Source of the DNA: Ferrovibrio sp. MS7
Lineage (GTDB): Bacteria; Pseudomonadota; Alphaproteobacteria; Ferrovibrionales; Ferrovibrionaceae
Direction of reading: 5' to 3'
Assembly: GCF_038404985.1 (NCBI RefSeq)
Contig: NZ_JBBKBA010000001.1
Coordinates: 1,578,001-1,642,000 of the forward strand
DNA: 64,000 nt
A model generated the notes under the pieces. It saw only the letters and a program-made list of their open reading frames with translations, was not told the origin of the DNA and searched no databases. Positions 32,249-59,460 of this stretch are shown piece after piece; positions within the stretch are counted from its first letter, which is position 1; every line of letters starts with the position of its first letter. The translations under genes were made by a program, and so were the position numbers.

Positions 32249-32252
32249 GGCT

Positions 32253-33179: not shown

Positions 33180-33188
33180 CCTGGGGCC

Positions 33189-34100: not shown

Positions 34101-34109
34101 GCGGCTGGA

Positions 34110-35225: not shown

Positions 35226-35298
35226 CTGCTTCTCCTTTGATTGTGCATTGGGGGATTGTGCAATGGGGCGAGAGAAAAGGGTGGGTTGATCAAGAAAA

Positions 35299-35679: not shown

Positions 35680-35713
35680 CTTTACGATGACCCTGTCATG
35701 GGTATGAAATTAT

Positions 35714-35732
35714 ACTATTGAAAAATTATAGT
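35714..35732. promoter_or_regulatory. ACTAT-N9-ATAGT repeat between RidA and TetR genes
   Basis: ACTAT at 35714-35718 and ATAGT at 35728-35732, 9-bp spacer. The same half-sites at the same spacing occur inside the longer palindrome at 38764-38796. Position near the RidA start fits control by the adjacent TetR protein. Confidence 0.4.
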
Positions 35733-35817
35733 CTACATTTTTCTATCCGTGGCGGCGAAAGTTTGATTCTAGTAGGATCAGGCTTCTCGCCGATTCTAGC
35801 CGGGATACAGAAAAGCC

Positions 35818-38763: not shown

Positions 38764-38796
38764 AAACAATACTATTAAGTCATAATAGTATTGTTT
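38764..38796. promoter_or_regulatory. Long perfect palindrome over the M24-gene promoter
   Basis: 14-bp arms (38764-38777 and 38783-38796) with a 5-bp spacer AGTCA. On the minus strand TTGATT-17-TACTAT fits a promoter whose -10 box lies inside the repeat, 25 bp or so before the M24 start. It also contains TAAGTCATA at 38776-38784. Confidence 0.65.
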
Positions 38797-38838
38797 CTGA
38801 ACTCCTAAATCAATTATGTATTGATGTAGCTGCCATGC

Positions 38839-39795
38839 TTACGCATAGGCACGTCGGCGCTCTTTAACCAGGTTTGTCAGTCGGTCGGTCGCAGCAAGAT
38901 ATTCCCGCTCCATGCGGCGGATCAATTCGGCGACCGGCGGCGTGTCATGGATCGAACCAACGCCCTGGCCGGCACTGAGAATGTCGCGCCAACGCTTTGG
39001 CTCGCCGAGTACATCGGTGACATTCATGCTGCCGACCGTACCACCGGCCCGCAGGTTGCCTTTTTCCGGCAGGGTCTGGCGCAGCCAATTAGCGCCAACA
39101 CCATCAACTTCGGCAGAATAGATGATATCGGTGATGTCCGACTCGATGACCAACTGCTTCATCTTATCCGAGGCCATGCTCTCGGCGGTGTTGACCAACC
39201 TTGTGCCGACATAGGCCAGATCGGCGCCGGCCGCGATGGCGCTGGCGATGCTGCTGCCATCGCTTATGCAGCCTGAAAGAATCAGGGCCTTGTCACCCAG
39301 CAGCGGGCGCAATTCGCCAATAAAGGCGAAGGGATTGTATGTGCCGGCATGGCCGCCGGCGCCGTTGCACACGGCGATGATGCCATCCACGTTCATTTCC
39401 AGCGCGCGGCGGGCGTGATGCACGTTGATGGCATCATGAAACACCAGGCCGCCATAGGCATGCACGGCATCGGTCACTTCGCGGGTGATGCCCAACGCGG
39501 TGATCAGGATCGGCACTTGGTATTTCACTGTCAGGGCCATGTCTTCGGCCAGGCGGGCATTGGTGCGGTGTACTGCAAACTGCACTGCCCAGGGTGCGTC
39601 ATCCGGACCGAGCCGGCCGCGGATATCCTTTAGCCATTCCTCGTAACCGGCCGATGTGCGCTGGTTGAAGCTGGGGAAACTGCCGATCACGCCGGCCTTG
39701 CTGGTTTCCACCACCAGATCCGGGCCGGAGATCAGGAAAAGCGGCGAAGCCAGCACCGGAAGCCGCAGGCGTCCTGCCAGAGTGGTTGGCAACAT
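38839..39795 (-). CDS. Nitronate monooxygenase (2-nitropropane-dioxygenase family)
   Basis: 318 residues, FMN-binding TIM barrel. The catalytic His is present as His149 in AGGHAG, and the N-terminal LPVLASPLFLISGPDL and C-terminal phosphate-binding region (ADLAYVGTRL) are typical. It may oxidise a nitronate or act as an NADH:quinone or enoyl reductase. Divergent from the acyl-CoA dehydrogenase gene. A paralogue lies at 44967. Confidence 0.88.
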   Translation of the reverse strand: MLPTTLAGRLRLPVLASPLFLISGPDLVVETSKAGVIGSFPSFNQRTSAGYEEWLKDIRGRLGPDDAPWAVQFAVHRTNARLAEDMALTVKYQVPILITALGITREVTDAVHAYGGLVFHDAINVHHARRALEMNVDGIIAVCNGAGGHAGTYNPFAFIGELRPLLGDKALILSGCISDGSSIASAIAAGADLAYVGTRLVNTAESMASDKMKQLVIESDITDIIYSAEVDGVGANWLRQTLPEKGNLRAGGTVGSMNVTDVLGEPKRWRDILSAGQGVGSIHDTPPVAELIRRMEREYLAATDRLTNLVKERRRAYA

Positions 39796-39839
39796 TTTTT
39801 ATCCTCCCTTAGGTCGTATAGGTGCCATCGTAGCGTGAT

Positions 39840-39888
39840 TATGACTTATAAATAATATTATTTACTTAAAAGTCAAATTGACTATAAT
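39840..39888 (+). promoter_or_regulatory. Operator-rich promoter of the acyl-CoA dehydrogenase operon
   Basis: Contains TATGACTTA (39840-39848), the palindrome TAAATAATATTATTTA (39849-39864), a second palindrome AGTCAA-A-TTGACT (39871-39883), and a plausible promoter TTTACT (39861-39866)-16-TATAAT (39883-39888). It begins 58 bp before the operon's start. TAAATAATATT and TAAGTCATA recur at 54979-54999. Confidence 0.6.
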
Positions 39889-39945
39889 GGTATCCGCTGA
39901 AAAGCGGTCCGCAGTGGCCGCGTGACAACAATTGGAGGAAACCAG

Positions 39946-41088
39946 ATGGCTGCCAGCGGAATCGACAATGAACTGGTCGAGGGCGTGCGCCGCTTTGTCG
40001 CCAAGCGTATCACCCCCTATACCGCTGCCTGGAATCGGGACGGGCGCGCGCCTGATAGCGTGCTGGCGGAAATGGGCGAGATGGGCCTGTTCGGCCTGCT
40101 GCTGCCTGAAGAATATGGCGGCGCTGGCTGCAATCTTTCCACCTTCATTGCCGTGGTCGAGGAACTGGCGGCTGGAGACGGCGGCCTCTCAACCCTGGTG
40201 CATGTGCACGGCCTGGGTACCGCCATGTTGCTGGCGCGGCTGGGCACCGAGGCACAGAAGCAGGCTTGGCTTGGCAAGATGGCGAGCGGCGAGGTGATCG
40301 GCGCGGTCTGCCTCACCGAGCCGTCAGCCGGCTCCGATCTTTCCGCCATCACCGGGCGCGCTACGCGCGCTGAAGGTGGCTGGATTCTGAATGCCACGAA
40401 GCAATTCATCTCCAATGGCGCCCGCGCCGGCCTGGTAATCGTGCTGGCGGTCACCGATCCCAAGGCCGGTTCGCACGGCAAGAGCTTCTTCCTGGTGCCA
40501 AAAGGCACGCCAGGCTTCACGCCGGGCAAGCTCGAACGCAAGATGGGGCAGCACACCTCCGACACGGCACAGATGCATTTCGAGAATTGCTTCGTGCCCG
40601 ATGACATGGTGCTGGGGGCTGTCGGCGAAGCCCTGCCGCTCACCATGGGGCTGCTCTCCGATGGCCGCATCTCGGTTGCTTCCCAGGCCGTGGGCATGGC
40701 GCGCGCCGCCTATGAACTGGCGCTCGGCTATTCGCGGGAACGCACCGCGTTTGGCAAGTCGATCTTCGATCATCAGGCGGTTGGGTTCCGGCTGGCCGAC
40801 ATGCATGCCGCCATCGACATGGCGCGGGTCTATACCCGGCATGCGGCGCAGCTATTCGATGAAGGCAAGGAATGTGCGCGCGAGGCCTCGATTGCCAAGC
40901 TGGTATCCGCGGAAATGGCCGAGAAGGTCTGCACCGATGCCATCCAGATTCATGGCGGCAATGGCTATCTCAACGATTACCGCGTGGAGCAGATTTTCCG
41001 TGATGTCCGCGTCTGCCAGATCTATGAAGGCACCAACGATATTCAGCGGCTGATCATCGCCCGTCGCATTCGCGAGCAGCAGCTATAA
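39946..41088 (+). CDS. Acyl-CoA dehydrogenase, short/medium-chain type
   Basis: 380 residues from the ATG at 39946 with GGAGG upstream. Catalytic Glu361 is in the canonical IYEGTNDIQR motif, unlike the enzyme at 4098. SEPSAGS-type flavin contacts appear as LTEPSAGSDL near residue 123. It introduces the 2,3 double bond and passes electrons to ETF. First gene of an operon with the crotonase and reductase genes. Confidence 0.92.
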   Translation: MAASGIDNELVEGVRRFVAKRITPYTAAWNRDGRAPDSVLAEMGEMGLFGLLLPEEYGGAGCNLSTFIAVVEELAAGDGGLSTLVHVHGLGTAMLLARLGTEAQKQAWLGKMASGEVIGAVCLTEPSAGSDLSAITGRATRAEGGWILNATKQFISNGARAGLVIVLAVTDPKAGSHGKSFFLVPKGTPGFTPGKLERKMGQHTSDTAQMHFENCFVPDDMVLGAVGEALPLTMGLLSDGRISVASQAVGMARAAYELALGYSRERTAFGKSIFDHQAVGFRLADMHAAIDMARVYTRHAAQLFDEGKECAREASIAKLVSAEMAEKVCTDAIQIHGGNGYLNDYRVEQIFRDVRVCQIYEGTNDIQRLIIARRIREQQL

Positions 41089-41101
41089 ACGGCAGGAGAA
41101 T

Positions 41102-41893
41102 ATGACGATGGCGGATAAGCTGGTTACCTTCGAGCGCAAGGGCGCAGTAGCGTGGCTTACGCTGACGCGCCCCGAAGCCGGCAATGGCATGAATGTGGCT
41201 TTGCTTAGCGATCTTGGGGAGGCGGTGCGTCGCTGCGATGCCGATCCGGCGGTGCGGGCCGTGGTGCTGACCGGTGCCGGGCGCTTCTTCTGTGTCGGCG
41301 GTGACCTTAGCGGCATGCGAGACCCGGCGGAAACCGCGCTCAGTATTCGCACCATGACCCTGCATCTGCATGCCGCCGTTGCCTGCCTGGCGCGGATGCG
41401 GGCGCCGAGCATTGCCGCTGTGAATGGTCCCGCCGCCGGCGCCGGTTTCAGCCTGGCGTTGGCCTGCGATTTTCTCATCGCGTCCGAAACGGCGCAATTC
41501 GCCTCCGCTTATGCTGCAGCCGGGCTTTCTGCTGATGGCGGCCAGTCCTGGTTACTGCCCCGCCGTGTCGGTCCGCATCGTGCCAAGGTAATGATGCTGC
41601 AGGGGCGCAAGCTTTCCGCTGCCGAGGCGCTGGACTGGGGCATCGCCGATCAGGTGGTGAAACCGGACGCGTTCATCGCTGCTGCCACTCAGATGGCTGA
41701 GGGCTTGGCCGGCGGCCCCACGGCGGCCTTCGGCCGGATGAAGAATCTGCTCGCCGATGCGGAATGCACCAGCTTGGAAACCCAACTCGAACTGGAGGCG
41801 CGCGGCATTGCAGCCTGCGTCGAGTCCCGGGATGCGCAGGAGGGTATTGCTGCCTTCATGGAAAAGCGCAAGCCGGTATTCCAGGGCTGCTGA
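41102..41893 (+). CDS. Crotonase-family protein (PaaG-like isomerase/hydratase)
   Basis: 263 residues. Oxyanion-hole segments GRFFCVGGDL and GPAAGAGFSLALACDF are conserved. Both hydratase glutamates are replaced (Ser and Ala), while an Asp is present in LSADGG, as in PaaG-type isomerases. The start may be the ATG at 41108. It lies 13 bp after the acyl-CoA dehydrogenase gene. Probably a double-bond isomerase or specialised hydratase. Confidence 0.85.
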   Translation: MTMADKLVTFERKGAVAWLTLTRPEAGNGMNVALLSDLGEAVRRCDADPAVRAVVLTGAGRFFCVGGDLSGMRDPAETALSIRTMTLHLHAAVACLARMRAPSIAAVNGPAAGAGFSLALACDFLIASETAQFASAYAAAGLSADGGQSWLLPRRVGPHRAKVMMLQGRKLSAAEALDWGIADQVVKPDAFIAAATQMAEGLAGGPTAAFGRMKNLLADAECTSLETQLELEARGIAACVESRDAQEGIAAFMEKRKPVFQGC

Positions 41894-41905
41894 AAGGAAA
41901 GCGCA

Positions 41906-43042
41906 ATGGCTGATGCGGCGGCGAAGGAATGGCGCGGTCTGGCGCTGCGTTCCTGTATCACTTCGACCGGCGAACTGCGCCTTGCTGTGGCCGAGGAAGT
42001 GATCGCTGCACCAGCGGAGGGTGAGGTGGTGGTGCGGGTGGAGGCGGCACCGATCAACCCCACCGATATGGGCCTGCTATTCGGCCCGGCCGATCTATCG
42101 GCCGCGCGGCTTGAAGGTAGCGTTGGGCAGCCGGTGCTGGTAGCGCCGGTCCCACAGCAGGCGCTGCCTTTCGTGGCTTTGCGTTTGAATCGGCCCTTGC
42201 CGGTGGGCGTGGAAGGGGCGGGTGTGGTCGTTGCTGCCGGGCGGGGCCAGGAAAAGCTGCTCGGCAGAACAGTGGCAATGCTGGGCGATGGCGCCTATGC
42301 GCAGTACCGCCGGATTGCGGCTGCCGATCTTCTGGTGTTGCCTGAAGCTACTGATCCGGCAGATGCCGCTTCGGCCCTGGTCAATCCGCTGACTGTGCTG
42401 GGGCTGCTTGAGACCGCGAAGCAGAATGGACACAAGGCTGTGGTCCATACGGCGGCTGCTTCCAGCCTTGGCAAGATGCTGATCCGCGCATGCCGGCAGG
42501 ATGGCGTGCCGCTGGTCAATATCGTGCGCCGCGAGGAACAGGTGGCTGAGTTGCGTGCACTCGGCGCTGAGCATGTCTGCAACAGCACTGCGCCTGACTT
42601 TAGGCAGACATTGGCGGAGGCGCTGCAGGAGACTGGTGCCACGGCCTGCTTCGATGCTGTGGGCGGGGCGCTTACCGGGCGTGTGCTCGGTGCCATGGAA
42701 GCAGCGGCCTTGCGCCGGGCGACACAGTATAGCCGCTATGGCACCGACGTGCTGAAGCAGGCCTATGTCTATGGCGCACTCGACCGTTCCCCTATCGAGA
42801 TCGGCCGTAGTGTCGGTTTGAGCTGGAGTGTGGGCGGTTGGCTATTGTTCAATTTCCTGCGGCAAGTGGATGCGGCAACCCTGGCGCGGTTGCACCGGCG
42901 GGTTTGCGATGAACTGCGCACGACCTTCGCCAGCAGTTATGCCGCTACCCTCTCTCTGGCGGATGCGGTGCGGCCAGATATGGTCGCCGCTTATACGCAG
43001 CAGCGTAGCGGCGCCAAATACCTGATCAACCCGCAGCTTTGA
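41906..43042 (+). CDS. MDR-family reductase (quinone oxidoreductase/enoyl reductase-like)
   Basis: 378 residues of the medium-chain dehydrogenase/reductase fold without zinc ligands (GVEGAGVV in place of the zinc GHE). The nucleotide-binding loop is unusual (HTAAASSLGKMLI instead of GxGxxG-type AAGGVG), closest to NADPH-dependent quinone or enoyl reductases. Third gene of the operon; its last 17 bp overlap the converging CaiB/BaiF gene. Substrate unknown. Confidence 0.8.
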   Translation: MADAAAKEWRGLALRSCITSTGELRLAVAEEVIAAPAEGEVVVRVEAAPINPTDMGLLFGPADLSAARLEGSVGQPVLVAPVPQQALPFVALRLNRPLPVGVEGAGVVVAAGRGQEKLLGRTVAMLGDGAYAQYRRIAAADLLVLPEATDPADAASALVNPLTVLGLLETAKQNGHKAVVHTAAASSLGKMLIRACRQDGVPLVNIVRREEQVAELRALGAEHVCNSTAPDFRQTLAEALQETGATACFDAVGGALTGRVLGAMEAAALRRATQYSRYGTDVLKQAYVYGALDRSPIEIGRSVGLSWSVGGWLLFNFLRQVDAATLARLHRRVCDELRTTFASSYAATLSLADAVRPDMVAAYTQQRSGAKYLINPQL

Positions 43043-44117
43043 TGCCGTCAAGAATCTCGGCGGTATGCTCGCCGAGTGCTGGCGCGCCTGAGCGGATACT
43101 GCTGGCATAGGCGGAGAACTGTACCGGCTGCAGGATATGCTCCTCCCCGTTCGCCAGGCGTTGAAACAGGCCGCGGTCGCGGAAATGCGGTTCCTGCAGC
43201 ACCCCGCTGAAATCGTGCAGCGGCGACCAGGCGATGTTACCGATGGCATCGAAGACGGCGGCCCAATGCGCGCGCGGCTGTTGTGCCAGCAAGGCGGCAA
43301 TCTCCGCCTTCAGTTCGGCGCAGCGCTGGCGCCGCTCTGGCGCCTTCAGCCCCGCATGCTGCGGCAGGGAGAGGGCCGTGCAGAGTGCCGCCCAGAAATG
43401 ATCTTCATGGGCAATGGAAAGGGTGAGCTGCTTTTCGTCGCCGCAGGTGAACAGGCCATAGGCGGGTTCGTCGAAGACCTCGAAAGCCTTGTCGCCGCTC
43501 ATATGCGGCACCAGGTAAGGCGTCATCCAGGAAACCAGGCCATCGGTCATGGACACATCAATGGCAGTGCCATGGCCGCTGCGCTCCCGGCCATAAAGCG
43601 CTGCGGCAATGGCGAAGGCGGCAAAAGTAGCGCTGGAAAGATCGCCAAACGGGATTTCAGGCATGGCCGGTGGTGCGCCAGCGCTGCCAAAGACCATGCC
43701 GGCCACGGCCTGATAGGAAAGATCATGGGCGGGGCGCATGCGGCTCGGTCCGCTCTGGCCGAAACCGGTGATCGAGGCATATATCAGGCGCAGGTTGCGG
43801 GCTGAGAGCACCTCATAACCGACGCCGAGGCGATCCATGGTACCCGGACGGTAGCCTTCCAGTACCACGTCTGCCTTTGCCGCCAGGGCAAGGAAGTCAG
43901 CCCGCCCGGTCTCGGTCTTGAGGTCCAGGCAGAGGCTGCGCTTGTTGCGGCCAACCGAGCGGAAGAAGGACGGGAAGGCACGCGTCGGGTCGCCGCCGGA
44001 GGGACGCTCCACCAGTATGACATCGGCGCCGAGATCGGCCAGAAGCAGCGTGGCATAGGGCCCAGGCAATTGCTCGGCCAGCGATAGAACCCGGATGCCG
44101 TCGAAAATGCCTTTCAT
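43026..44117 (-). CDS. CaiB/BaiF family CoA transferase or 2-methylacyl-CoA racemase
   Basis: 363 residues, family III fold. The racemase residues are also present here: His131 (AHDLSYQ), Asp159 (FGDLSS) and Glu238 (IAHEDHFW), at nearly the same positions as in the protein encoded at 5429. CoA transferase activity through Asp159 is equally possible. Divergent from the TetR gene at 44345; its 3' end overlaps the reductase gene. Confidence 0.85.
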   Translation of the reverse strand: MKGIFDGIRVLSLAEQLPGPYATLLLADLGADVILVERPSGGDPTRAFPSFFRSVGRNKRSLCLDLKTETGRADFLALAAKADVVLEGYRPGTMDRLGVGYEVLSARNLRLIYASITGFGQSGPSRMRPAHDLSYQAVAGMVFGSAGAPPAMPEIPFGDLSSATFAAFAIAAALYGRERSGHGTAIDVSMTDGLVSWMTPYLVPHMSGDKAFEVFDEPAYGLFTCGDEKQLTLSIAHEDHFWAALCTALSLPQHAGLKAPERRQRCAELKAEIAALLAQQPRAHWAAVFDAIGNIAWSPLHDFSGVLQEPHFRDRGLFQRLANGEEHILQPVQFSAYASSIRSGAPALGEHTAEILDGIKAAG

Positions 44118-44215
44118 CTTACCCTCCTGCTGCTTACGATTCGGCCGATATCGCAGCCCTGCCGAGTCGCCAGACTCGTCGCTGCGGTAAAAAGGACCTG
44201 ATTTAGGGGCGGTTT

Positions 44216-44225
44216 ATTTGACTTT
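44216..44225 (-). promoter_or_regulatory. AAAGTCAAAT site upstream of CaiB/BaiF and TetR genes
   Basis: The 10-mer AAAGTCAAAT on the minus strand, identical to 39869-39878. It lies in the 227-bp divergent gap and overlaps a TTGACT box pointing to the TetR gene. Possible autoregulatory site. Confidence 0.35.
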
Positions 44226-44344
44226 GTAGTAAGTTTATTCAATGTTTCCCGCCGCAGGCCCGATTCCCGGAATATGTGTGGCATCGCAGGCAAGAGCCGG
44301 CGGGCCGATCGAGCCGGATTGAAGCGGGCAGAATTGAAGGAGAC

Positions 44345-44980
44345 GTGCCGTTGGCACAGCGTGGTCGTAAAGCATCGGCTTGGAAGAATGTGGCGCCCAG
44401 CCGGGATCAGCTTTTTGCACTGAAGCGCACGGCGTTGCTGCGCGAAGCGGCGCGTGCCTTCTCTGCCCGTGGCTACCACGACACCTCGCTCGATGATGTC
44501 GCCAAGACCCTCGGTGTCACCAAGCCGGCGCTCTATTACTATGTCACCAACAAGCAGGAAATCCTGTTTGAGTGCCATATGCTGGCGCAGGATCTCGGCA
44601 ATGTCGCCTATGACTATGCCTTGGAGCATGGCAAGACCGGGCGCGAACGCATCGTGCTGGTTTGCCGCCGTTACATCGAATTGATCACAGGCGAGATCGG
44701 TTCCTGCGCCGTGCTGAGCGAATTCGCTGCACTGGAGCCGAAGAACCGTGCCGTGATCGCCCGCCGCCGTGACGAATTTCAGAAGAAATTCTCCGAACTG
44801 ATCGCTGATGGCATGAAGGATGGCAGCATCCGCGAGGCCGATCCGCGCATGACGGTGTTTTTCTTCATGGGCGCGATCAACTGGATGACGCAATGGTTCC
44901 GGCCCGATGGCGACATGAGCGGCGAGGGTATTGCACGGGTGTTTTCCGACCTGCTGGAGCATGCGCTCAAGCCGCAGTAA
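44345..44980 (+). CDS. TetR/AcrR-family transcriptional regulator
   Basis: 211 residues from a GTG at 44345 with AAGGAG upstream; an ATG at 44276 would add 23 residues with no site. TetR helix-turn-helix around residues 40-65 (SLDDVAKTLGVTKPALYYYV), a DNA-binding helix common among acyl-CoA-responsive members such as KstR2/FadR-like proteins. The C-terminal ligand domain has a Trp/Phe-rich end. Surrounded by acyl-CoA genes, it is a candidate for the AAGTCAWA sites. Its end overlaps the converging gene by 14 bp. Confidence 0.9.
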   Translation: MPLAQRGRKASAWKNVAPSRDQLFALKRTALLREAARAFSARGYHDTSLDDVAKTLGVTKPALYYYVTNKQEILFECHMLAQDLGNVAYDYALEHGKTGRERIVLVCRRYIELITGEIGSCAVLSEFAALEPKNRAVIARRRDEFQKKFSELIADGMKDGSIREADPRMTVFFFMGAINWMTQWFRPDGDMSGEGIARVFSDLLEHALKPQ

Positions 44981-45926
44981 CGTTCCGTCCGTTCCGGGCG
45001 CTCTGATAATCACGCTGGAAGCGCCGCACCAGGTCGGCAACGCCTTCCACTTCGCGAACATCGCCAACGCCGTGGCCGGCGCTCCAGATGTCGCGCCAGG
45101 CTTTCAGGGCATTCATTTCCTTCAGCAGATTGAAGCCGCCTTCATGCTTGCCCCCTGATTTCAGGCCGGCGCCTTCCAGGCTCTGGCGCAGCATGTTGGC
45201 CGGGATGCCGGTGATCTCGGCAGTGAGGATGATGTCGTCGGCATTGGCACTGATCAGCATCTCGCGGTACTGGTCGTTGGCCTGGCTTTCGCGCGTGGCG
45301 ATGAAGCTGGTACCGATATAGGCGAGATCGGCGCCCATTTCCTGGGCGACATGAATATAGCGCCCGCGTGAAATGGCACCGGCCAGCACGATGGGGCCAT
45401 CGAAGAATTCGCGCACCTCGGCGACGAAGGCGAAGGGGCTGAGCCAGCCGGTATTGCCGCCGGAACCGGCGCAAAGCAGGATCAGGCCATCGACACCGAC
45501 TTCCACGGCGCGGCGTGCATGCTTGAGCGATGCCACGTCGGAAAAGACCAGGCCGCCATAGGCATGCACGCGGGCAACCACACCGGCCGGGCTGCCAACG
45601 CTGGCGATCACCAGGGGCGCTTTGTGCTTTTCCACCAGCACCAGATCCTCTTCCAGCCGGGTATTGCTGGAATGCACGATCAGATTCACCGCATACGGAG
45701 CAGCACCTGGGCGGCTGGTTTCGGCAGCGATGCGGGTCAGCCATTGGTCGAGCAGCTCAACGGTACGGGCATTCAGGCTGGGGAAGGAGCCGACGACACC
45801 GGCATTACAGCAGCCGATCACCAGATCCGGCCCGGAAATCAGGAACATCGGTCCGGCAATAGCCGGTAGTTGCAGTTGCGAAGTGAAACGGGCGGCGAGT
45901 TCGCGGCTGCCAGATTTTGTCGTCAT
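44967..45926 (-). CDS. Nitronate-monooxygenase paralogue lacking the catalytic His
   Basis: 319 residues from the ATG at 45926, preceded by GGGAGG. It aligns throughout with the protein at 38839 (LPAIAGPMFLISGPDL, VHAYGGLVFSD, AHVAQEMGADLAYIGTSF-like region), but where that one has GGHAG this has GGNTG, with Asn158 at the catalytic His position. It should still bind FMN. Likely a reductase or an enzyme with another substrate. Divergent from the second Liv operon. Confidence 0.85.
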   Translation of the reverse strand: MTTKSGSRELAARFTSQLQLPAIAGPMFLISGPDLVIGCCNAGVVGSFPSLNARTVELLDQWLTRIAAETSRPGAAPYAVNLIVHSSNTRLEEDLVLVEKHKAPLVIASVGSPAGVVARVHAYGGLVFSDVASLKHARRAVEVGVDGLILLCAGSGGNTGWLSPFAFVAEVREFFDGPIVLAGAISRGRYIHVAQEMGADLAYIGTSFIATRESQANDQYREMLISANADDIILTAEITGIPANMLRQSLEGAGLKSGGKHEGGFNLLKEMNALKAWRDIWSAGHGVGDVREVEGVADLVRRFQRDYQSARNGRNVTAA

Positions 45927-45958
45927 TTGTGTCCTCCCAAGAATGTGCGAAAGAGAGA

Positions 45959-45986
45959 TTGACATAAATTTACCCGTAAGTAAACT
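45959..45986 (+). promoter_or_regulatory. Promoter with operator-like repeat for the second Liv operon
   Basis: TTGACA (45959-45964), 16-bp spacer, TAAACT (45981-45986). Between the boxes lie TTAC-CC-GTAA (45970-45979) and the wider TTTAC-N6-GTAAA (45969-45984), a site that a repressor could use to block the polymerase. The operon starts at 46064. Confidence 0.55.
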
Positions 45987-46063
45987 AGACGTCCATATGG
46001 TCAGATACTAAATAGGCCAAGCCGGTCCGGGAGCTGAACCCGGCCGACGATAGGGAGGAACGA

Positions 46064-46879: not shown

Positions 46880-48843
46880 TGCTGGCGATGCAGACTTTGC
46901 CGCAACTACTGTTGCAGCGCGGCAAGCAGGAACCGAAGCGCTTGGCGCAGCGCCACAAGAAGCGTGGTATCTGGCGCGAATATAGCTTTGGCGATGTGCT
47001 CGAGCATGTCCGTGGCCTCGCCCTTGGCCTTGAGGCCATGGGCATCAAGCGCGGTGAGACTGTAGCCATCATTGGGGAAAATGAGCCGGAAAATTTCTGG
47101 GCAGAATTCGCCGCCCTGGCGCTCGGCGCCAAGGTGATCTCGCTCTATCCCGATCTCACCGCCGGTGAAATTGATTATCTGTTGAATAACAGTGAGGCGG
47201 TCTGCCTTATCGCCCAGGACCAGGAGCAGGTCGACAAAGGCCTTGCCGTGCGCAGTGCGGTACCCGGCCTGCGGCATATCCTTTACTGGGACACCACTGG
47301 CATGTGGTCCTATGGCAACAAAGGACTGCATACCACTCAGGATGTGGCAGCACGTGGCAATGAGCGCCATCGCGCCAATCCGCAAGCCTTTGAAGTGATG
47401 GTGGCGGCGGGCAGCCCGGATGATATCGCCGTACTGTCCTATACCTCAGGCACCACCGGTAAGCCGAAGGGGGTGATCGTCACCCACAAGATGATGATCG
47501 ATAATGCCCACCGCATTATGACTGCGGCTGAGGTGAAACCGGGCCTCGATTACCTCACCTATATCGCGCCGGCTTGGATCACCGAGCAGATTGTCGGCGT
47601 AACCATGGGTCTGGCTGTGCCGATGGTGGTGAATTTCCCCGAATCACCAGAGGAAGTGCTGGCCAACCTGCGCGAGATCGCCGTCGAGATGATGGTGTTC
47701 GCACCCCGGCAATGGGAAAGCCTCGCGGCCACGATCCAAGCGCGCATGCTGGATGCCGGCCCGCTGCGGCGTCGCATCTACGAATGGGGCGTTGCCATCG
47801 GGCATAAGGTGAATGTCGGTCGTCTGCAAGGCAAGCCGGTGCCGCTGCTCGCCCGCTTGCTCTATCCCCTGGCCGATGCCGTGGTGCTGCAGCCGCTGCG
47901 CGACAAGCTGGGCCTGACGCGGTTGAGCTTGCCGGTCTGCGGCGGTGCCACCATGGCGCCAGATGTGTTCCGCCTGTTCCATGCCATCGGCGTGCCACTG
48001 CGCAACATCTATGGCGCCACCGAGGTGGGCCTGATGACCTTGCACCAGGGCGCCAGCTACAATCTCGAAACCGTCGGCCATTGGCTGAAGCCGCATCCGG
48101 ATGCCGGCAAACCGCTGGAATGGAAGCTCTCCGAAGCCGGCGAATTGATGGTGCGCGGCGGCTCCTTCTTTCAGGGCTATTACCGAAACGAAGAGAAGTC
48201 CGTCGAGCGCCTCAGCGATGGCTGGTATCTCACCGGTGACGCGGTCACCGCCACAGAGAGCGGCGAGTTGGTTTTCCTCGAACGTATCAGCGACCTGCGC
48301 CGCATGCGCAGCGGTGACAGTTTCCCGCCGCAGTATATCGAGACGCGGCTGCGCTTCAGCCCGTTCATCAAGGATATCCTCACGCTTGGCGATGAGAGCC
48401 GTGATTTCGTTGGCGCGCTGATCAATATAGACATGGAAGTGCTGTCGCGCTGGGCGGAAGAACGCAACATCACTTATTCCACTTTCACCGATCTTTCACA
48501 GAAGCCAGAAGTGGGAGCGCTGATTCGGGAGGATATCCGCCGCGTCAACCGCTTCCTGCCCGAGCATGCCCGGGTGCGGCGCTTTGCGAATTTCCCCAAG
48601 GAACTTGATCCGGACGAAGGCGAATTGACCCGCACCCGCAAGCTGCGGCGTGAATTCATCACCGAACGCTACCGGTATCTGGTGGAGGAACTCTATCAGG
48701 GCAGCAGCATGGCATCATTGAACATCCCGATCACCTACCAGGATGGCCGCAAGGGCACACTCTCGGCAGTGGTGCGGATCAATGATGTGGATGAGGATTT
48801 CAAGATGACCGAGACCCAGAACAACAGGCGGGCCATCGCATGA
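46879..48843 (+). CDS. Long-chain-type AMP-forming acyl-CoA synthetase inside the ABC operon
   Basis: 654 residues, the size of FadD15-like long-chain synthetases. Phosphate loop YTSGTTGKPKG near residue 193, GATEVG near 378, the GDAVT hinge near 450 and a long C-terminal extension. No membrane segment is evident. It overlaps livG by 1 bp and livH by 4 bp, so its coexpression with the transporter is certain. The context suggests that the imported carboxylate is activated at once, which would trap it in the cell. Confidence 0.9.
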   Translation: MLAMQTLPQLLLQRGKQEPKRLAQRHKKRGIWREYSFGDVLEHVRGLALGLEAMGIKRGETVAIIGENEPENFWAEFAALALGAKVISLYPDLTAGEIDYLLNNSEAVCLIAQDQEQVDKGLAVRSAVPGLRHILYWDTTGMWSYGNKGLHTTQDVAARGNERHRANPQAFEVMVAAGSPDDIAVLSYTSGTTGKPKGVIVTHKMMIDNAHRIMTAAEVKPGLDYLTYIAPAWITEQIVGVTMGLAVPMVVNFPESPEEVLANLREIAVEMMVFAPRQWESLAATIQARMLDAGPLRRRIYEWGVAIGHKVNVGRLQGKPVPLLARLLYPLADAVVLQPLRDKLGLTRLSLPVCGGATMAPDVFRLFHAIGVPLRNIYGATEVGLMTLHQGASYNLETVGHWLKPHPDAGKPLEWKLSEAGELMVRGGSFFQGYYRNEEKSVERLSDGWYLTGDAVTATESGELVFLERISDLRRMRSGDSFPPQYIETRLRFSPFIKDILTLGDESRDFVGALINIDMEVLSRWAEERNITYSTFTDLSQKPEVGALIREDIRRVNRFLPEHARVRRFANFPKELDPDEGELTRTRKLRREFITERYRYLVEELYQGSSMASLNIPITYQDGRKGTLSAVVRINDVDEDFKMTETQNNRRAIA

Positions 48844-49724
48844 GCGAGTTCCTGAACTATACCATAAACGGTGCCCTGATCGGGTTGCTCTACGCCCTGA
48901 TCGCCATGGGCTTCATCGTCATCTACCGCGCATCGAAGGTATTCAATTTTGCCCAGGGCGAATTGGTAGTGTTTGGTGGCTTCGTGGTGTGGTGGATGAT
49001 CACCTCCATCGGCCTGCCTTACTGGATCGGCATTCCGTTGGCCTTCGGTGTCGCTGCCCTATTCGGCTTGGCCATCGAGCGCATCTTTTTCTCCAAACTG
49101 GTGGGTGAGTCGGTTTTTGCCATGGTGATGGTGACAATTGGCCTGCTCATCCTGTTGCGTGGCTTGATCCTGGTATTGTTTGGCCCGCAGGTGCGGCCAT
49201 TCCCGATCATCTTCCCGCTGCAGCCAGTGATCGTGGGGGAAATCCTGATCCCGCGCTCGCTGTTTGTCGGCGGCATCATCACGGTGATTGTTGGCTTTGG
49301 CCTGTCCTGGTTCTTCAACCGTACCCGCCTCGGCCTGCGCATGACAGCGGTGGCTGAAGATCACCAGGTGGCGGTGTCGATGGGCATTTCGGTGAAGCGC
49401 TCGGTGGCCTTCGCCTGGATACTCGGCTCGGTCCTGTCCACGCTCGGCGCGATCATTTTCCTCAGCGGCAAGTCGATCAGCTTCCTCGCCTCGGATATCG
49501 GCTTGGCTGCGCTGCCGGTAGCCTTGCTGGCCGGCTTTGAGTCAATTGCCGGCGTGCTGCTTGCGGGCATTATCGTTGGCATCATCCAGGGCCTCGTCAC
49601 GGCTTATATCGACCCAGCACTTGGCGGCTCGGTCGGCAGTGTTTTTCCATTCATCATCATGCTTGCCATCCTGTTTATCCGGCCGACCGGTATGTTCGGC
49701 TGGAAGATGGTCGAAAGGGTTTAA
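48840..49724 (+). CDS. livH: HAAT-family ABC transporter permease LivH
   Basis: 294 residues, about eight membrane helices, the LivH segment KVFNFAQGELVVFGGF near residue 36. Begins in the ligase stop (ATGA). Three bp separate it from livM. Confidence 0.92.
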   Translation: MSEFLNYTINGALIGLLYALIAMGFIVIYRASKVFNFAQGELVVFGGFVVWWMITSIGLPYWIGIPLAFGVAALFGLAIERIFFSKLVGESVFAMVMVTIGLLILLRGLILVLFGPQVRPFPIIFPLQPVIVGEILIPRSLFVGGIITVIVGFGLSWFFNRTRLGLRMTAVAEDHQVAVSMGISVKRSVAFAWILGSVLSTLGAIIFLSGKSISFLASDIGLAALPVALLAGFESIAGVLLAGIIVGIIQGLVTAYIDPALGGSVGSVFPFIIMLAILFIRPTGMFGWKMVERV

Positions 49725-49727
49725 GCC

Positions 49728-50780
49728 ATGGATCCCGCTGGCGTATTTGCAACCAGCTTCGCGCGTGACCAGTCTCTGATCCGCACGCGCAAGCAGCTTA
49801 TCTGCCTGGTGCTGTTCCTGTTGCTGCTGGCTGTGCTGCCGCTGTTGGTCGGCCCGCGTCTGGTAGCAGTGGCCACCTCGGCGCTGATCACCGCCGTGGT
49901 CACCGTCGGCCTGCAGATATGCACCGGCTATGGCGGCCAAGTGAATCTCGGTCAGGCTGCTTTCATGGGCAGCGGGGCTTATGCCACCGCCGTCCTGGCC
50001 AGCAAATTCGGTTTCCCGTTCTGGGCGTCTATTCCGCTCGGCGGCTGCGCTGCCGCGGCCTTCGGCTTCGTCTTCGGCCTGTCGGCGGTGCGCATCAAGG
50101 GATTCTACCTGGTGCTGACCACCATTGCCGCGCAGTCGCTGTTCCATTTCCTGGTGCTGAACCTGCCACAATCCTGGCTGGGTGGCTCCAACGGTCTGTC
50201 GCTCGAACCGGCGAATCTCTTCGGCTTTGCCATCGATACCGACCGCTCGATCTACTATCTCTGCCTGGTGTTTGCCGTAGTGATGGTGGCTGGTGCTTAT
50301 GGTATTGCCCGCAGCCGCCACGGCCGCGACTTCGTGGCGGTGCGCGATGATGATGTCGCCTCTGGCATGATGGGCATTGATGTGGTGCGCACGAAGGCCA
50401 TGGCCTTCCTGGTTGGTGCCTTCTATGCCGGCATCGGCGGTGGTCTCTGGGCCTACTATGTCCGCTTTGTCGCGGTCGACCAGTTCACGCTGTTCCACTC
50501 GATCTGGTTCATCGCGATGATCATTGTCGGTGGCATCGGCTCGGTGACCGGTGCACTGATCGGCGTCGTTGTCATCCTCTCTGTGCGCGAGAGCTTTATC
50601 AGCCTCGGCCCGACATTTGTGCAGGTGGTGCCCTGGCTGGGCGGCGATGTGGTGTTCGCCACGCTCAATGTATTCCTGGGCGGCATCATCGCGGCATTCC
50701 TGATCTTCGAGCCGCGCGGCTTGATGCATCGCTGGTCGATCATCAAGCGGTCCTACCGCATGTGGCCGTTCCCCTACTGA
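49728..50780 (+). CDS. livM: HAAT-family ABC transporter permease LivM
   Basis: 350 residues. The GYGGQVNLGQAAFMGSGAYA segment near residue 66 and the coupling loop AVRDDDVASGMMGIDVVRTK near 205 are typical. The C-terminus (SYRMWPFPY) is characteristic of the ligase-associated subgroup of these transporters. Confidence 0.93.
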   Translation: MDPAGVFATSFARDQSLIRTRKQLICLVLFLLLLAVLPLLVGPRLVAVATSALITAVVTVGLQICTGYGGQVNLGQAAFMGSGAYATAVLASKFGFPFWASIPLGGCAAAAFGFVFGLSAVRIKGFYLVLTTIAAQSLFHFLVLNLPQSWLGGSNGLSLEPANLFGFAIDTDRSIYYLCLVFAVVMVAGAYGIARSRHGRDFVAVRDDDVASGMMGIDVVRTKAMAFLVGAFYAGIGGGLWAYYVRFVAVDQFTLFHSIWFIAMIIVGGIGSVTGALIGVVVILSVRESFISLGPTFVQVVPWLGGDVVFATLNVFLGGIIAAFLIFEPRGLMHRWSIIKRSYRMWPFPY

Positions 50781-50835
50781 CGTTCAAGAAGGTTTAAACG
50801 AGTTTCACCGCGTAGCAAAAACGGGAGGAAGTAAA

Positions 50836-52053
50836 ATGAACATGTTCGTGCGCACCGCTGCCGCCGGGATGGTTGCGGCAATGCTGGCTGGTCCGGTGCA
50901 GGCCCAGACCACTTACAACATCGCATCGCTGGCCGACTTTACGGGCCCTTATGCCGACGTGATGAAGGATCTGAACGGTGCCCGCCATGCCGCCGTGGCG
51001 TGGTGGAATGCCGAGGTCGGCAAGTCGCTCGGCATCCAGCTCCGGATGAAGGATTACGATCATCGCTACGACGCCGCCCAGGTCGCCAGCCTGTGGCCGG
51101 GTATCAAGGCCGAACTGAATCCGATCATCGCTCTTGGTGTTGGCGCACCGGACGCAACCGCGTTGCAGGGCCGCCTGCCGGCCGATGGTATTCCGCTGAT
51201 CATGTCCACTGCCGGCTACGGTTTCGGCTGGAAGAGCGATCCCTGGGTGTTCAACCCGCGCTCGACCTATGCCCATGAGGCGGCCGGCTTCCTCGAATGG
51301 TACCGCAAGGCCAACAATATCTCTGGTCCGCTGAAGGTCGCGGTGTTCTCGTCGGAAGCGTCGCCAGCCTATGTCGATATCGCCAAGGGCCTGAAAAAGT
51401 ATGCTGACGAGAACAAGGCCACCATCGACCTGGTTGAAACTGTGTTCACCGAGGTTCAGCCGACCGATCTGACCACCCAGGTGAACCGCGTGCTCGGCAA
51501 GGGGGCGCAGGTGCTGGACGTGCAGACCAACACCGCTGCCGTGGTGGCGGTGAAGCGTGCCCTGCAGGCCTTGAACAAGAAGGTCCCGATCGTGATGAGC
51601 TCGCATAACGGCATCACGGCTTCTGCCCAGGCTATTGGTGGCATTGCCAATCTGGAGGGCGACTACGAAGTCTACGGCATGGCGATGCCGACTGACGAGA
51701 TGACCAAGTCGCGCCAGTTCTACGAGAAGCTCAAGGCCCAGTATGGCATGAAGGGCGGTTGGACGGTGCCGACCCTGATGGGGCTGAACCAGACCCTGGT
51801 AGCCTTGCGCGCGGTGGAGGCGTCGGCCAAGAAGTCCGGCGCTGCCAATGTCACCGGCCGGACGGTGCGCGAGACCTTGCTCACTACCACGATCACCAGT
51901 GCGGAGACCTTCGAGATCCTCTCGGACGTCAAGTACACCAATGATGCCCCGTTCCCCACTACGGGCGCGGCGGTGAATATCGGTGTTGTGAAGGGCGGCA
52001 AGTATGTAACGGCTGCCCAGGCTGTGCCGGTGCCGCAGATCGGTAAGTGGTAA
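50836..52053 (+). CDS. HAAT-family ABC substrate-binding protein
   Basis: 405 residues. Sec signal peptide cleaved after Val-Gln-Ala at about residue 23, then a type I periplasmic-binding fold with an aromatic-rich pocket region (AVAWWNAEV; GYGFGW). Distant from the other two Liv binding proteins here. The ATG at 50836 has GGGAGG 7 bp upstream. A 12-bp palindromic hairpin follows before livF. Substrate probably a hydrophobic or aromatic carboxylate given the ligase, an inference. Confidence 0.9.
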   Translation: MNMFVRTAAAGMVAAMLAGPVQAQTTYNIASLADFTGPYADVMKDLNGARHAAVAWWNAEVGKSLGIQLRMKDYDHRYDAAQVASLWPGIKAELNPIIALGVGAPDATALQGRLPADGIPLIMSTAGYGFGWKSDPWVFNPRSTYAHEAAGFLEWYRKANNISGPLKVAVFSSEASPAYVDIAKGLKKYADENKATIDLVETVFTEVQPTDLTTQVNRVLGKGAQVLDVQTNTAAVVAVKRALQALNKKVPIVMSSHNGITASAQAIGGIANLEGDYEVYGMAMPTDEMTKSRQFYEKLKAQYGMKGGWTVPTLMGLNQTLVALRAVEASAKKSGAANVTGRTVRETLLTTTITSAETFEILSDVKYTNDAPFPTTGAAVNIGVVKGGKYVTAAQAVPVPQIGKW

Positions 52054-52067
52054 TTCAGTCGCAAAAG

Positions 52068-52092
52068 CGGGCCGGGCATCATGCCCGGCCCG
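52068..52092 (+). promoter_or_regulatory. Hairpin between binding-protein and livF genes
   Basis: Palindrome with 12-bp arms (52068-52079, 52081-52092) and a 1-bp centre, no T-run. It can shield the binding-protein mRNA 3' end. It also contains an in-frame ATG (52081) that is not the livF start. Confidence 0.6.
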
Positions 52093-52110
52093 ACACTGCC
52101 GGAGGCGCGC

Positions 52111-52902
52111 GTGCTTGAACTCAACAATGTCGAAGTGATCTACAGCGAAGTCATCCTGGCCGTGAAGGGGGTGTCGCTGCGCATCAATGAAGGCCAATGC
52201 GTTGCCCTGCTGGGCGGCAATGGCGCCGGCAAGTCGACGACGCTGAAGGCGATTTCCAACGTGATTCAGACCGAGGATGGCCGCGTCACCTCGGGCAATA
52301 TCCAGTTCAATGGCCAACGCATCGACAACCGCGATGCGGTGGATATCGTCGATGCCGGCATCATCCATGTGATGGAAGGCCGCCGTGTGCTGCGCCACCT
52401 CACCGTGGAGCAGAACCTGATCATCGGCGGCCACAAGGAGACCAGCCTGCGCGCAGTGCGCCAGCGACTGGACGAAGTCTATGCCCGGATCGGCCGTCTG
52501 GCGGCGCTGAAGGACCGTACCTCGGGCTACCTCTCAGGCGGCGAGCAGCAGATGCTGGTGATCGGCCGTGCCATGATGGCCCGCCCCAAGCTGATGCTGA
52601 TCGACGAGCCATCCCTGGGCCTGGCGCCGCTGATGGTGGACGAAGTCTTCGCGGTGCTGCAATCGCTGAAGGAATCCGGCGTCACGTTGCTGGTGGTGGA
52701 GCAGAATGCCCGCGTTGCCCTGGCCTTGGCCGATTACGGCTATGTCATGGAAAATGGCCATATCGTGCTTGAAGGTGCTGGCGATGAACTGCGCAGCAAC
52801 GAGGATGTGCGGGAATTCTATCTCGGCCTCAATATCGAGGGCGAGCGCAAGAGCTACCGCGACGTCAAGCATTACCGCCGGCGCAAGCGCTGGCTCGGCT
52901 AA
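52111..52902 (+). CDS. livF: HAAT-family ABC transporter ATP-binding protein LivF
   Basis: 263 residues from a GTG at 52111 with GGAGG 5 bp upstream, giving MLELNNVEVIY; the ATG at 52081 sits inside the hairpin. Walker A GGNGAGKST, signature LSGGEQQMLVIGRA and Walker B LMLIDEPSLGL. The basic C-terminal tail (SYRDVKHYRRRKRW) is longer than that of the two other LivF proteins. Last gene of the operon, 20 bp from the converging PaaK-like stop. Confidence 0.92.
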   Translation: MLELNNVEVIYSEVILAVKGVSLRINEGQCVALLGGNGAGKSTTLKAISNVIQTEDGRVTSGNIQFNGQRIDNRDAVDIVDAGIIHVMEGRRVLRHLTVEQNLIIGGHKETSLRAVRQRLDEVYARIGRLAALKDRTSGYLSGGEQQMLVIGRAMMARPKLMLIDEPSLGLAPLMVDEVFAVLQSLKESGVTLLVVEQNARVALALADYGYVMENGHIVLEGAGDELRSNEDVREFYLGLNIEGERKSYRDVKHYRRRKRWLG

Positions 52903-52922
52903 GCTGCCAGAGCTGCCTGCGC

Positions 52923-54134
52923 CTATTGGCGCAGGTCTCGCACCAGCGGTGCCTCCGGGGGCAGTTCTGCGGCTGTCACGATTTCCACATGATCGGCCTT
53001 GAGGCGGGACAATTCGCGGAACTTTGCCTGCGCCGGCTCGGTCACACCGGCGGCATCGGTTTCATCCTGCAGCGACAGGCGCAGGGTGACGCAGTCCCGG
53101 TGGCCTTCTCGGCTGATCGAGGCTTGAGCCCGCAGCACCCCCGGAATGGCGATGGCAAGGTCTTCCAGTTGGCGCGGATAGATGAAGATTTCCCGCGCCT
53201 TCACCGATTGCCCGACGCGGCCCTGCAACATCGAGATATGCGCCACGCTACCATCGCCATGCAGTTCGCGGGCAATGGCGACATCGCCGGTGCCGAAACG
53301 GATCAGTGGCCAGCCCGGGCGCAACGTGCTGACCACGATCTCTCCTGGCTCGCCTATAGGCAGCGGCAGACCGCTTACGGGGTCGCAGATCTGCACGATA
53401 CGGTCGGGATGGGTTTCATACCCCTCCTTTCCGGGGCGCTCAAAGCCGATCAGGCCAAAATCTGCCGTGGCATAGACCGAGAAGGTACGGATGCCATAAC
53501 GCGCCTCAAGCCGACGCCGCTTGCCCATCCAGTCGCCGAACTCGCCGCCCAGGAAGGCCGAGGTGACACTCCAGTCGCGTGGCAGCTCATGTCCGGCCTG
53601 TTCCAGCGTTTCAGCCAGGGTGACGAAATAGGCAGTCGCGGCGCAGATGCAGGTGACGCCAAGGTCGCGCACCAGCTTGGCCTGCATCTCGCTGCCGCCG
53701 GTACCAGCAGGGATCACTGTGGCGCCGGTATTGCGTATGCCTTCATCCAGCAGCAGGCCGGCCGGCACAAGGTGGTAGGACCAGGTGTTCAGCACCACAT
53801 CGCCTTTGCCGATGCCGGCAGCGGCGAAGGCAGCGCCGAAACCGAAGGCATCATCTTCGCTGCGCAATTGCGGTTCATTGATCGGGCCTGGCGATACAAA
53901 GATACGCTCGATATCTGCGGGATCGGCAGCAAGGAAGCCGCCATAAGGCGGTGCCTTGCGCTGCTGCTCGATCATCGCTTCCTTCTTGAACACGGGCAGG
54001 CGGCTAAGGTCCGCAGCATTGCCAAGCTGCTCGGGACGCAAGCCGGCGCCATCGAACAGGGCGCGGATTGCCGGAGCGCGCTCATAAGCCCGGGCCTGGA
54101 TGGCGCGCAGCCGGGTGAAACGGTCGTCGGTCAT
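52923..54134 (-). CDS. Phenylacetate-CoA-ligase-family protein (PaaK-like), divergent
   Basis: 403 residues, ANL superfamily PaaK branch. The core GEPGEIVVSTL and RFGTGDVA motifs are conserved, but the phosphate loop reads VSPGPINEP instead of SSGTTGKP, and the C-terminal end (PLVRDLRQ) has no obvious catalytic Lys. Either an altered CoA or aryl ligase or a non-ligating adenylate enzyme. Begins 17 bp after the crotonase stop on the same strand. Confidence 0.82.
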   Translation of the reverse strand: MTDDRFTRLRAIQARAYERAPAIRALFDGAGLRPEQLGNAADLSRLPVFKKEAMIEQQRKAPPYGGFLAADPADIERIFVSPGPINEPQLRSEDDAFGFGAAFAAAGIGKGDVVLNTWSYHLVPAGLLLDEGIRNTGATVIPAGTGGSEMQAKLVRDLGVTCICAATAYFVTLAETLEQAGHELPRDWSVTSAFLGGEFGDWMGKRRRLEARYGIRTFSVYATADFGLIGFERPGKEGYETHPDRIVQICDPVSGLPLPIGEPGEIVVSTLRPGWPLIRFGTGDVAIARELHGDGSVAHISMLQGRVGQSVKAREIFIYPRQLEDLAIAIPGVLRAQASISREGHRDCVTLRLSLQDETDAAGVTEPAQAKFRELSRLKADHVEIVTAAELPPEAPLVRDLRQ

Positions 54135-54151
54135 CGTGGCGCTCTCCCGGA

Positions 54152-54946
54152 TCAGCGGCCAGTGAAGCGCGGCTGGCGCTTTTCCTCGAAGGCGGCCAGT
54201 CCTTCCTTCAGGTCGGCGCTCTGGGCATGCAGCTCGGAGGCCAGCAATTCCAGGCGCAGTGCCTGGGCGGTGGGCTGCTCCAGCCCGTCATCCACCAGAG
54301 CCTTTACGCGTCGCAGCACCAGCGGGCTTTTCACCGCCAGCTTGGCCACCAGGCGGCCGGCAGCGGCCATCAGGTCGGTATCCTCCACTACCTCGTTCAC
54401 CAGCCCAGCCGGTACCAGATCGGTAGCCGGAACCGACTCACCAGTAAACAACAGATATTTCGCCCGGGTGGGACCGATCTTGCGCGGCAGCCGAACCGAC
54501 GAGCCGCCGCCCGGCAACAGGCCAAAATTGGCATGGGCATCGCCGATGCGGGCCGAGCGTGCTGCTATGACCAGATCGCAGCACAGCAGCAACTCCAACC
54601 CGCCGGCCAGCGCCAGTCCATTCACCGCCGCGATCACTGGACGCGGACAGCTTTCCAGGCGCGTCATCATGTGCAGCACAGAATCCAGGAATATACTGAC
54701 ATTTCTCTCATCCTGGCCGCTGGTGGCGCGTACGAATTTGAGGTCGGCGCCGGCACAGAAGGCACGGCCATTGCCGGTCAGCACCACGGCGCGGATGTCA
54801 TCTTGTTCCGCGCGGTCAAGCGCCTGTTCGATGCCGGCGACAATGGCCGGAGTAATCGAGTTGAGCGCGGTGGGGCGGTTCAGGCAGATCCAGACCGCAC
54901 CATCGCGGACTTCGACCAGCACGCTGGAATCGACAGGTGCGTTCAT
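54152..54946 (-). CDS. Enoyl-CoA hydratase/isomerase family protein
   Basis: 264 residues. Oxyanion-hole segments GRAFCAGADLKF and LALAGGLELLLCCD; the first catalytic Glu (GGLEL) is kept, while the second position falls in DAHANFGLLPGGG, with His/Asn. First gene of a two-gene minus-strand run with the PaaK-like gene; divergent from the thiolase across a palindrome-rich promoter. Confidence 0.88.
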   Translation of the reverse strand: MNAPVDSSVLVEVRDGAVWICLNRPTALNSITPAIVAGIEQALDRAEQDDIRAVVLTGNGRAFCAGADLKFVRATSGQDERNVSIFLDSVLHMMTRLESCPRPVIAAVNGLALAGGLELLLCCDLVIAARSARIGDAHANFGLLPGGGSSVRLPRKIGPTRAKYLLFTGESVPATDLVPAGLVNEVVEDTDLMAAAGRLVAKLAVKSPLVLRRVKALVDDGLEQPTAQALRLELLASELHAQSADLKEGLAAFEEKRQPRFTGR

Positions 54947-54962
54947 GGCTTTCCTCCAGTTA

Positions 54963-54999
54963 TTGACTCATGAGTCATTAAATAATATTGTAAGTCATA
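54963..54999 (+). promoter_or_regulatory. Promoter and operator-like repeats between crotonase and thiolase genes
   Basis: TTGACT (54963-54968), 17-bp spacer, TATTGT (54986-54991) toward the thiolase. The palindrome TGACTCATGAGTCA (54964-54977) overlaps the -35 box, TAAATAATATT is at 54979-54989 and TAAGTCATA at 54991-54999; both of the latter recur in 39840-39859. Confidence 0.6.
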
Positions 55000-56323: not shown

Positions 56324-56352
56324 CACACAGTATTTCAGTCTGGGAGGATACA

Positions 56353-59404: not shown

Positions 59405-59420
59405 TCCGTTGAGTGCCAGC

Positions 59421-59441
59421 GGGGCCGGCCAGGCCGGCCCC
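59421..59441 (+). promoter_or_regulatory. GC-rich palindrome after the binding-protein gene
   Basis: Arms GGGGCCGGCC (59421-59430) and GGCCGGCCCC (59432-59441) with one central base, no T-run; folds as a 9-bp stem. Third hairpin found between a binding-protein gene and the next transporter gene in this window. Confidence 0.6.
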
Positions 59442-59460
59442 GTCAATCATCGGAATAGTA

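Follow-up and report, generated by a model that had tools for sequence, protein, structure and literature searches.

Two members of the TetR family set the frame for the locus described here: QacR, of which one operator is bound by a pair of dimers, and PfmR, whose name we take to stand for a regulator of phenylacetate and fatty-acid metabolism. PfmR is TTHB023, a TetR repressor of Thermus thermophilus HB8, and the solved chain 3VPR bears its name (PMC6657595, PMC10636190; both available in part). For TTHB023, the available part of PMC7022988 gives a selected 16-bp consensus, (a/c)Y(g/t)A(A/C)YGryCR(g/t)T(c/a)R(g/t), reports divergent targets and promoters with two sites, and maps sites to promoters for fatty acid biosynthesis; for SbtR (TTHA0167, T. 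thermophilus) it gives the consensus TGACYrnnyRGTCA. MbdR of Azoarcus sp. CIB is a TetR repressor of a CoA-thioester catabolic cluster, with 3-methylbenzoyl-CoA as inducer and several operators over −10/−35 elements, its own promoter included (PMC4424350, available in part). Among solved chains, 3VPR is the best match (E 5.1e-27) of TetR2, a TetR-family protein of Ferrovibrio sp. MS7, residues 27–207 of 210 aligning to 5–185. The TetR2 gene starts at 44348 in the stretch of 64,000 nucleotides analysed here (the window; its genome comprises 4,576,383 bases), within an acyl-CoA catabolic cluster that spans 38.8–57.1 kb. Judging from sequence, TetR2 is very probably the dimeric local repressor of four operators covering the eight transcription units of this cluster, its own gene included.

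The units of the cluster converge in pairs, so that all eight start from four divergent gaps. Each gap carries one copy of a 16-bp palindrome, TTKACY-N4-RGTMAA (consensus TTKACYNNNNRGTMAA; Table 1). Conservation was read from aligned orthologous gaps of the window and three congeners (G001, G006 and G007; the 54963 gap without G006), and all 15 sequences from the four genomes, window included, have at most one mismatch to the consensus. A 39-bp block (39840–39878) is invariant in all four genomes, inside an otherwise poorly conserved gap. The predicted regulator gene has its own palindromic site beside it (44218) in each of the four, with the centre and the R position differing between genomes. 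The initial annotation had called for such a comparison of upstream regions; the palindromic operators, which it had overlooked together with the copy at 45969, are kept in all three congeners. In a leave-one-promoter-out analysis, in which a symmetric matrix from three promoters ranked the fourth among 63,985 window positions, the only positions above the held-out sites (ranks in Table 1) were the training sites and, once, 39841.

TetR2 is the likely repressor because the same palindrome precedes its distant homologues. The homologue set consisted of the listed matches with E ≤1e-30 in 385 genomes of the class (at most 8 candidates scored per genome), which, minus the window gene and the G006 orthologue, numbered 16. 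Four loci from the search of relatives brought it to 20, further matches there without a locus being left out; three same-genus duplicates were then dropped (L132, no site; L135 and L136, perfect site), giving 17 loci, four of them Ferrovibrio paralogues, with 340 bp upstream scored. Perfect YKACYNNNNRGTMR is found upstream of 7 of the 17 homologues (L011, L014, L015, L134, L139, L141 and L143; 35–42% identity), against a mean of 0.13 in simulation (0/300 simulations as high); the backward pattern is perfect upstream of none of the 20. One mismatch gives 10/17 homologues vs 3.14 expected, whereas two mismatches give no signal (16/17 vs 15.59). Six of these 7, L011 being the exception, adjoin thiolase, AMP-ligase or acyl-CoA dehydrogenase genes. 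The suggestion that one regulator, perhaps this TetR protein (placed at 44345 in the initial annotation), controls the cluster is thus supported by the conserved operators and by the palindrome before distant TetR homologues. Upstream of three Ferrovibrio paralogues of TetR2 (L012, L013 and L130; 37–39%) lies a different shared element with AGTAAC at its end (GTGAAC..CAGTAAC-like), which may be a divergent form of the operator.

The protein itself contains TetR_N (51.1 bits, cut-off 24) and TetR_C_24 (103.3 bits, cut-off 26.4). Its orthologues (92–94%) are found in the three congeners, as are those of the acyl-CoA dehydrogenase (87–91%); in the 57 remaining relatives, the long TetR2 matches listed reach 41% at best, and a few short ones confined to the helix-turn-helix reach 42–43%. 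By contig search, in which records of the own genome were possibly excluded, the closest relatives of the acyl-CoA dehydrogenase (87–91%) are in two Ferrovibrio metagenome-assembled genomes and one alphaproteobacterial assembly. The comparison covered 14 further genomes of the order: 13 contain acyl-CoA dehydrogenase paralogues (≤53%) and no closer match, and one has no match at E 1e-80. Both proteins were searched for in 13 of these 14, and an orthologue of either is absent from all of them; the TetR2 comparison did not extend to the genome of the same species (G061, 72% complete). The literature matches listed include no Ferrovibrio TetR regulon by title. The predicted TetR2 regulon is conserved, local and of an ordinary kind.

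TetR2 is a relative of PfmR and, by analogy, likely works in the same way. By reading, the four operators agree with the TTHB023 consensus in the available text at its ten half-site positions (YKAMY/RKTMR, 4-bp centre), including its g/t and c/a ambiguities, although the pattern is loose; the GRYC centre and the outermost bases are not matched. As a scanner, the full TTHB023 16-mer gives the four operators 3–5 mismatches, which is indistinct from the window background. Since the full 16-bp consensus with its GRYC centre is not reproduced, TetR2 is not filed as PfmR. With the SbtR sites, as far as the excerpt gives them, the operators have the TGACY-N4-RGTCA frame in common; here sites were compared, not proteins. 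The MbdR operator in the part of the paper available, ATACN10GTAT, is by reading absent from the TetR2 operators, and the MbdR chain 4uds matches TetR1, a second TetR protein of the window, weakly and is not among the best 60 of 76 TetR2 matches.

A second element accompanies most operators. TAAGTCATA starts 28 bp from the operator start at both 39861 (minus strand) and 54963 (plus strand), the operators being oriented alike, and three gaps out of four have RGTCA at offset +30, where it is 20 bp from the right half of the operator. A common RGTCA offset in three gaps was reached in 0/20,000 simulations, where any shared offset was counted and the half-site had been selected after the alignments were viewed. 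The half-site beside 39861 is kept in all four genomes, the thiolase gap of G007 has GGTCAT in both places, and the element at 39841 looks like a full operator as well. An operator with such a half-site would naturally be read as the site of two in-phase dimers: RGTCA, about two turns from the right half, may recruit a second, cooperative dimer. This would be similar to the paired dimers of QacR, but the second element here is mainly a half-site, and the two dimers are only what we infer.

Concerning promoters, a sigma-70 scan of 37.5–56 kb gave 11 promoter-like sites vs 5.8 expected, the top three (10 of 12) being the acyl-CoA dehydrogenase, ABC transporter and ECH2 promoters. In the first of these, the left half of operator 39861 serves as the predicted −35 (TTTACT); in the second (TTGACA-16-TAAACT), the spacer and −10 lie largely under operator 45969; in the third, the −10 ends on the added half-site. 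Eight matches score 9 of 12, of which two touch operators (the predicted thiolase promoter, whose −35 is the TTGACT left half of operator 54963, and a minus-strand match at 39884 overlapping operator 39861) and six lie elsewhere. A TetR2 dimer would bind the copy of TTKACY-N4-RGTMAA in each divergent gap, and the four operators would govern all eight units, the TetR2 gene among them. In three gaps of the four, predicted promoter elements (−35, spacer or −10) are overlapped by the operator, so that TetR2 on its site would keep RNA polymerase out; the simplest reading is steric repression together with autoregulation. The analogy with MbdR and the genes present point to an acyl-CoA intermediate of the pathway as the presumed ligand that releases TetR2.

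Several observations weigh against TetR2 as the repressor of these operators. TetR2 falls below every NCBIfam cut-off (best, the SACE_7040 family with 41.1 bits vs 250), so that no curated family names its function. Ten of the 17 homologues lack a perfect upstream site, and neither the closest homologue outside the genus (L131, 42%) nor L132, from the genus of L131, has a site with fewer than two mismatches. The CaiB/TetR2 gap has no listed promoter match in the scanned region, and is without the +20 half-site in the window and, by reading, in the three congeners. Genome-wide there is no excess: TTKACYNNNNRGTMAA with at most one mismatch gives 29 sites vs 87 for the backward control. The consensus was also drawn from the sites themselves, a circularity reduced only by the leave-one-out, homologue and spacing tests. 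The operator signal is one of local clustering, conservation and position rather than genome-wide enrichment. For the 25 other places in the genome with at most one mismatch, six were viewed (L086, L089, L090, L095, L099 and L006), with families for the neighbours of four, and no clear common pathway was seen among them. As a genome-wide pattern, TGACTNNNNAGTCA is too strict (three places, one of them here). An exact TTKACYNNNNRGTMAA match, TTGACCAGATAGTCAA, lies at C1:1671259 (L089, about 1501–1516), about 29 kb past the window end, between an alpha/beta hydrolase gene and a CoxG-family gene; judging by the match, it could be a further target.

Operator conservation may also be partly promoter conservation, because TTGACT resembles a −35 hexamer. 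Taken to its end, this would make the shared motif sigma-70 promoter sequence only, with TTGACT/TTTACT as −35 hexamers and AT blocks as −10, and no common regulator would be needed. Promoter-like matches do coincide with three of the four operators, and −35 hexamers would be conserved anyway; yet the opposite half, RGTMAA, is conserved and is no promoter element, the 45969 palindrome lies over the spacer and −10 rather than the −35, the +30 spacing is constant in three gaps, and the palindrome before distant TetR homologues far exceeds simulation. We consider this explanation improbable.

The initial annotation had linked five sites by AAGTCAWA, of which 5 copies were observed vs 1.12 expected, and the k-mers behind this were found where it placed them, all in gaps. 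TAAGTCATA occurs at 38776 (+), 39840 (−) and 54991 (+) and has zero further copies in the genome (7 for the backward control pattern). AAAGTCAAAT, at 39869 (+) and 44216 (−), is one half of two palindromes, the right half at the former and the left half at the latter. The 11-mer TAAATAATATT occurs at 39849 (+), 39854 (−) and 54979 (+), but not in the same relation to the motif, as had been claimed: at 39849 the motif abuts on the opposite side and strand, and at 54979 it follows after 1 base. Chance was assessed by Markov simulations, gap by gap (11 gaps longer than 40 bp in the 29–58 kb region, some gene limits being estimates; 300 simulations); since the gaps are AT-rich, shuffling the complete window (about 60% GC) makes the matches look more surprising than they are. 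In this composition-matched check, 8-mers in at least three gaps clearly exceed simulation (5 observed, 0.42 expected, 0/300 simulations), and the single 9-mer in at least three gaps, TAAGTCATA, is unusual (5/300). The 10-mers in at least two gaps are borderline (5 observed, 1.76 expected, 17/300) and the 11-mers are not significant (2 observed, 0.56 expected, 41/300); TAAATAATATT was therefore rejected as a shared element. The near-chance 10-mers and 11-mer are what speaks for reading all matches as chance k-mers in AT-rich gaps, against which stand the conservation in three congeners, the leave-one-out recovery, the constant spacing and the sites upstream of homologues; we give that explanation next to no credence.

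AAGTCAWA was likewise rejected as a recognition unit, because it cuts through the palindrome and mixes two operators. The central idea of one regulator over 15 kb stands; the five sites are not equivalent, AAGTCAWA corresponds to a half-site, and the site before the M24 gene is separate, so that the motif, the M24 membership and the 11-mer are corrected. The M24 site is better explained as a predicted operator of TetR1 (35818). Its palindrome matches two others in the window (Table 1), and the 29-bp pattern, drawn from those sites, fits nowhere else in the window with at most three mismatches, a shifted reading on the minus strand at 35704 aside (0.07 matches expected). Genome-wide, ATACTNTTNNNNNNNAANAGTAT with at most two mismatches gives four places, three of which are the 29636, 35709 and 38766 sites (control, one). 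TetR1 likely owns this second palindrome, which would make a second TetR regulon. In the M24 palindrome ATAC and GTAT are, by reading, 15 bases apart, so that ATACN10GTAT of MbdR is not found there either. A looser pattern, ACTATN9ATAGT, was rejected for TetR1: it has two exact places, neither of them outside the window, yet once a single mismatch is tolerated it gives 17 vs 22 for the control.

A rival explanation, in which the AAGTCAWA sites are bound by TetR1 or by some other unlinked regulator, would fit with the nearby TetR1 gene and with the 38776 palindrome that includes TAAGTCATA. However, TetR1 has an operator candidate of its own that suits it better. Of the 18 genomes of the order, one has TetR1 at E 1e-20, and the 17 others, congeners included, have no match; the operators persist in three congeners without TetR1, and TetR1 therefore cannot explain them. 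Otherwise, it has one 37% homologue in the 385 class genomes (E 1e-20; 8 candidates scored per genome), at whose locus the palindrome finds no match with at most three mismatches. These points bear on TetR1 and not on an unlinked regulator; overall we hold the explanation to be very improbable. The left arm and core of the M24 palindrome rank sixth with the full TetR2 matrix, so that overlapping control by TetR1 and TetR2 is possible. More tentatively, the regulator might read a composite 36-bp operator (palindrome plus in-phase half-site exactly 20 bp off, under two cooperative dimers), and the M24 palindrome might be chimeric (TetR1 arms around the AGTCA core AATACTATTAAGTCAT), with cross-talk of the two neighbouring regulons at that one site; we regard this reading as rather doubtful.

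With TetR2 as the probable repressor, the locus shows how a cluster of eight units can be controlled from four operators placed in its divergent gaps, and two adjacent TetR regulons are separated that a short-motif view merges. It also provides a candidate operator for those regulators of the TetR_C_24 type that are encoded next to acyl-CoA genes in several families within the class.

Table 1. Coordinates of predicted operators, half-sites, regulators and transcription units in the window
Feature	Position	Strand	Remarks
Candidate TetR2 operator TTTACTTAAAAGTCAA, NMO1/acyl-CoA dehydrogenase divergent gap	39861–39876		invariant in 4/4 genomes; held-out rank 1 of 63,985
Candidate TetR2 operator TTGACTTTGTAGTAAG, CaiB/TetR2 divergent gap	44218–44233		present in 4/4 genomes; held-out rank 5
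Candidate TetR2 operator TTTACCCGTAAGTAAA, NMO2/ABC-transporter operon gap	45969–45984		held-out rank 4
Candidate TetR2 operator TTGACTCATGAGTCAT, ECH2/thiolase gap	54963–54978		held-out rank 4
Secondary operator with a partial match, at 20 bp from the 39861 operator; includes most of TAAGTCATA (39840–39848, −)	39841–39856	−	invariant in 4/4 genomes
Added half-site GGTCA (GGTCAG), +30 from the 45969 operator	45999–46003	+	kept in 4/4 genomes
TAAGTCATA as added half-site (RGTCA starting at 54993), offset +30 relative to the 54963 operator	54991–54999	+	RGTCAT kept in 3/3 genomes
NMO1, NMO-family flavoprotein gene	38839–39795	−	proposed regulated unit
Acyl-CoA dehydrogenase, enoyl-CoA hydratase and zinc-binding dehydrogenase genes	39946–43042	+	proposed regulated unit
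Family III CoA-transferase gene (CaiB)	43026–44117	−	proposed regulated unit
TetR2, proposed autoregulated repressor (TetR_N + TetR_C_24)	44348–44980	+	nearest solved relative 3VPR (PfmR)
NMO2, second NMO-family gene	44967–45965	−	proposed regulated unit
Branched-chain-amino-acid-type ABC transporter operon and AMP-forming ligase	46064–52902	+	proposed regulated unit
PaaK-like ligase and enoyl-CoA hydratase (ECH2) genes	52923–54946	−	proposed regulated unit
Thiolase-like and short-chain dehydrogenase genes	55085–57123	+	proposed regulated unit
Perfect 14+5+14 palindrome before the M24 gene; core holds TAAGTCATA (38776)	38764–38796 (29-bp pattern 38766–38794)		assigned to TetR1, not TetR2
Matching palindrome, ridA/TetR1 divergent gap, beside liv-type ABC operon	35709–35737		pattern match
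Matching palindrome before nitroreductase-family gene (29012–29593, −)	29636–29664		pattern match
TetR1, proposed regulator of the second palindrome	35818–36450	+	

The true start of NMO2 probably lies a few codons further in. Directly after the cluster, a GntR/UTRA regulator gene (57312–58172) precedes another set of liv-type transporter genes (58169–62067). Three branched-chain-amino-acid-type ABC transporter gene sets are present in about 31 kb (30774–35315, 46064–52902 and 58169–62067), with a regulator gene near each.

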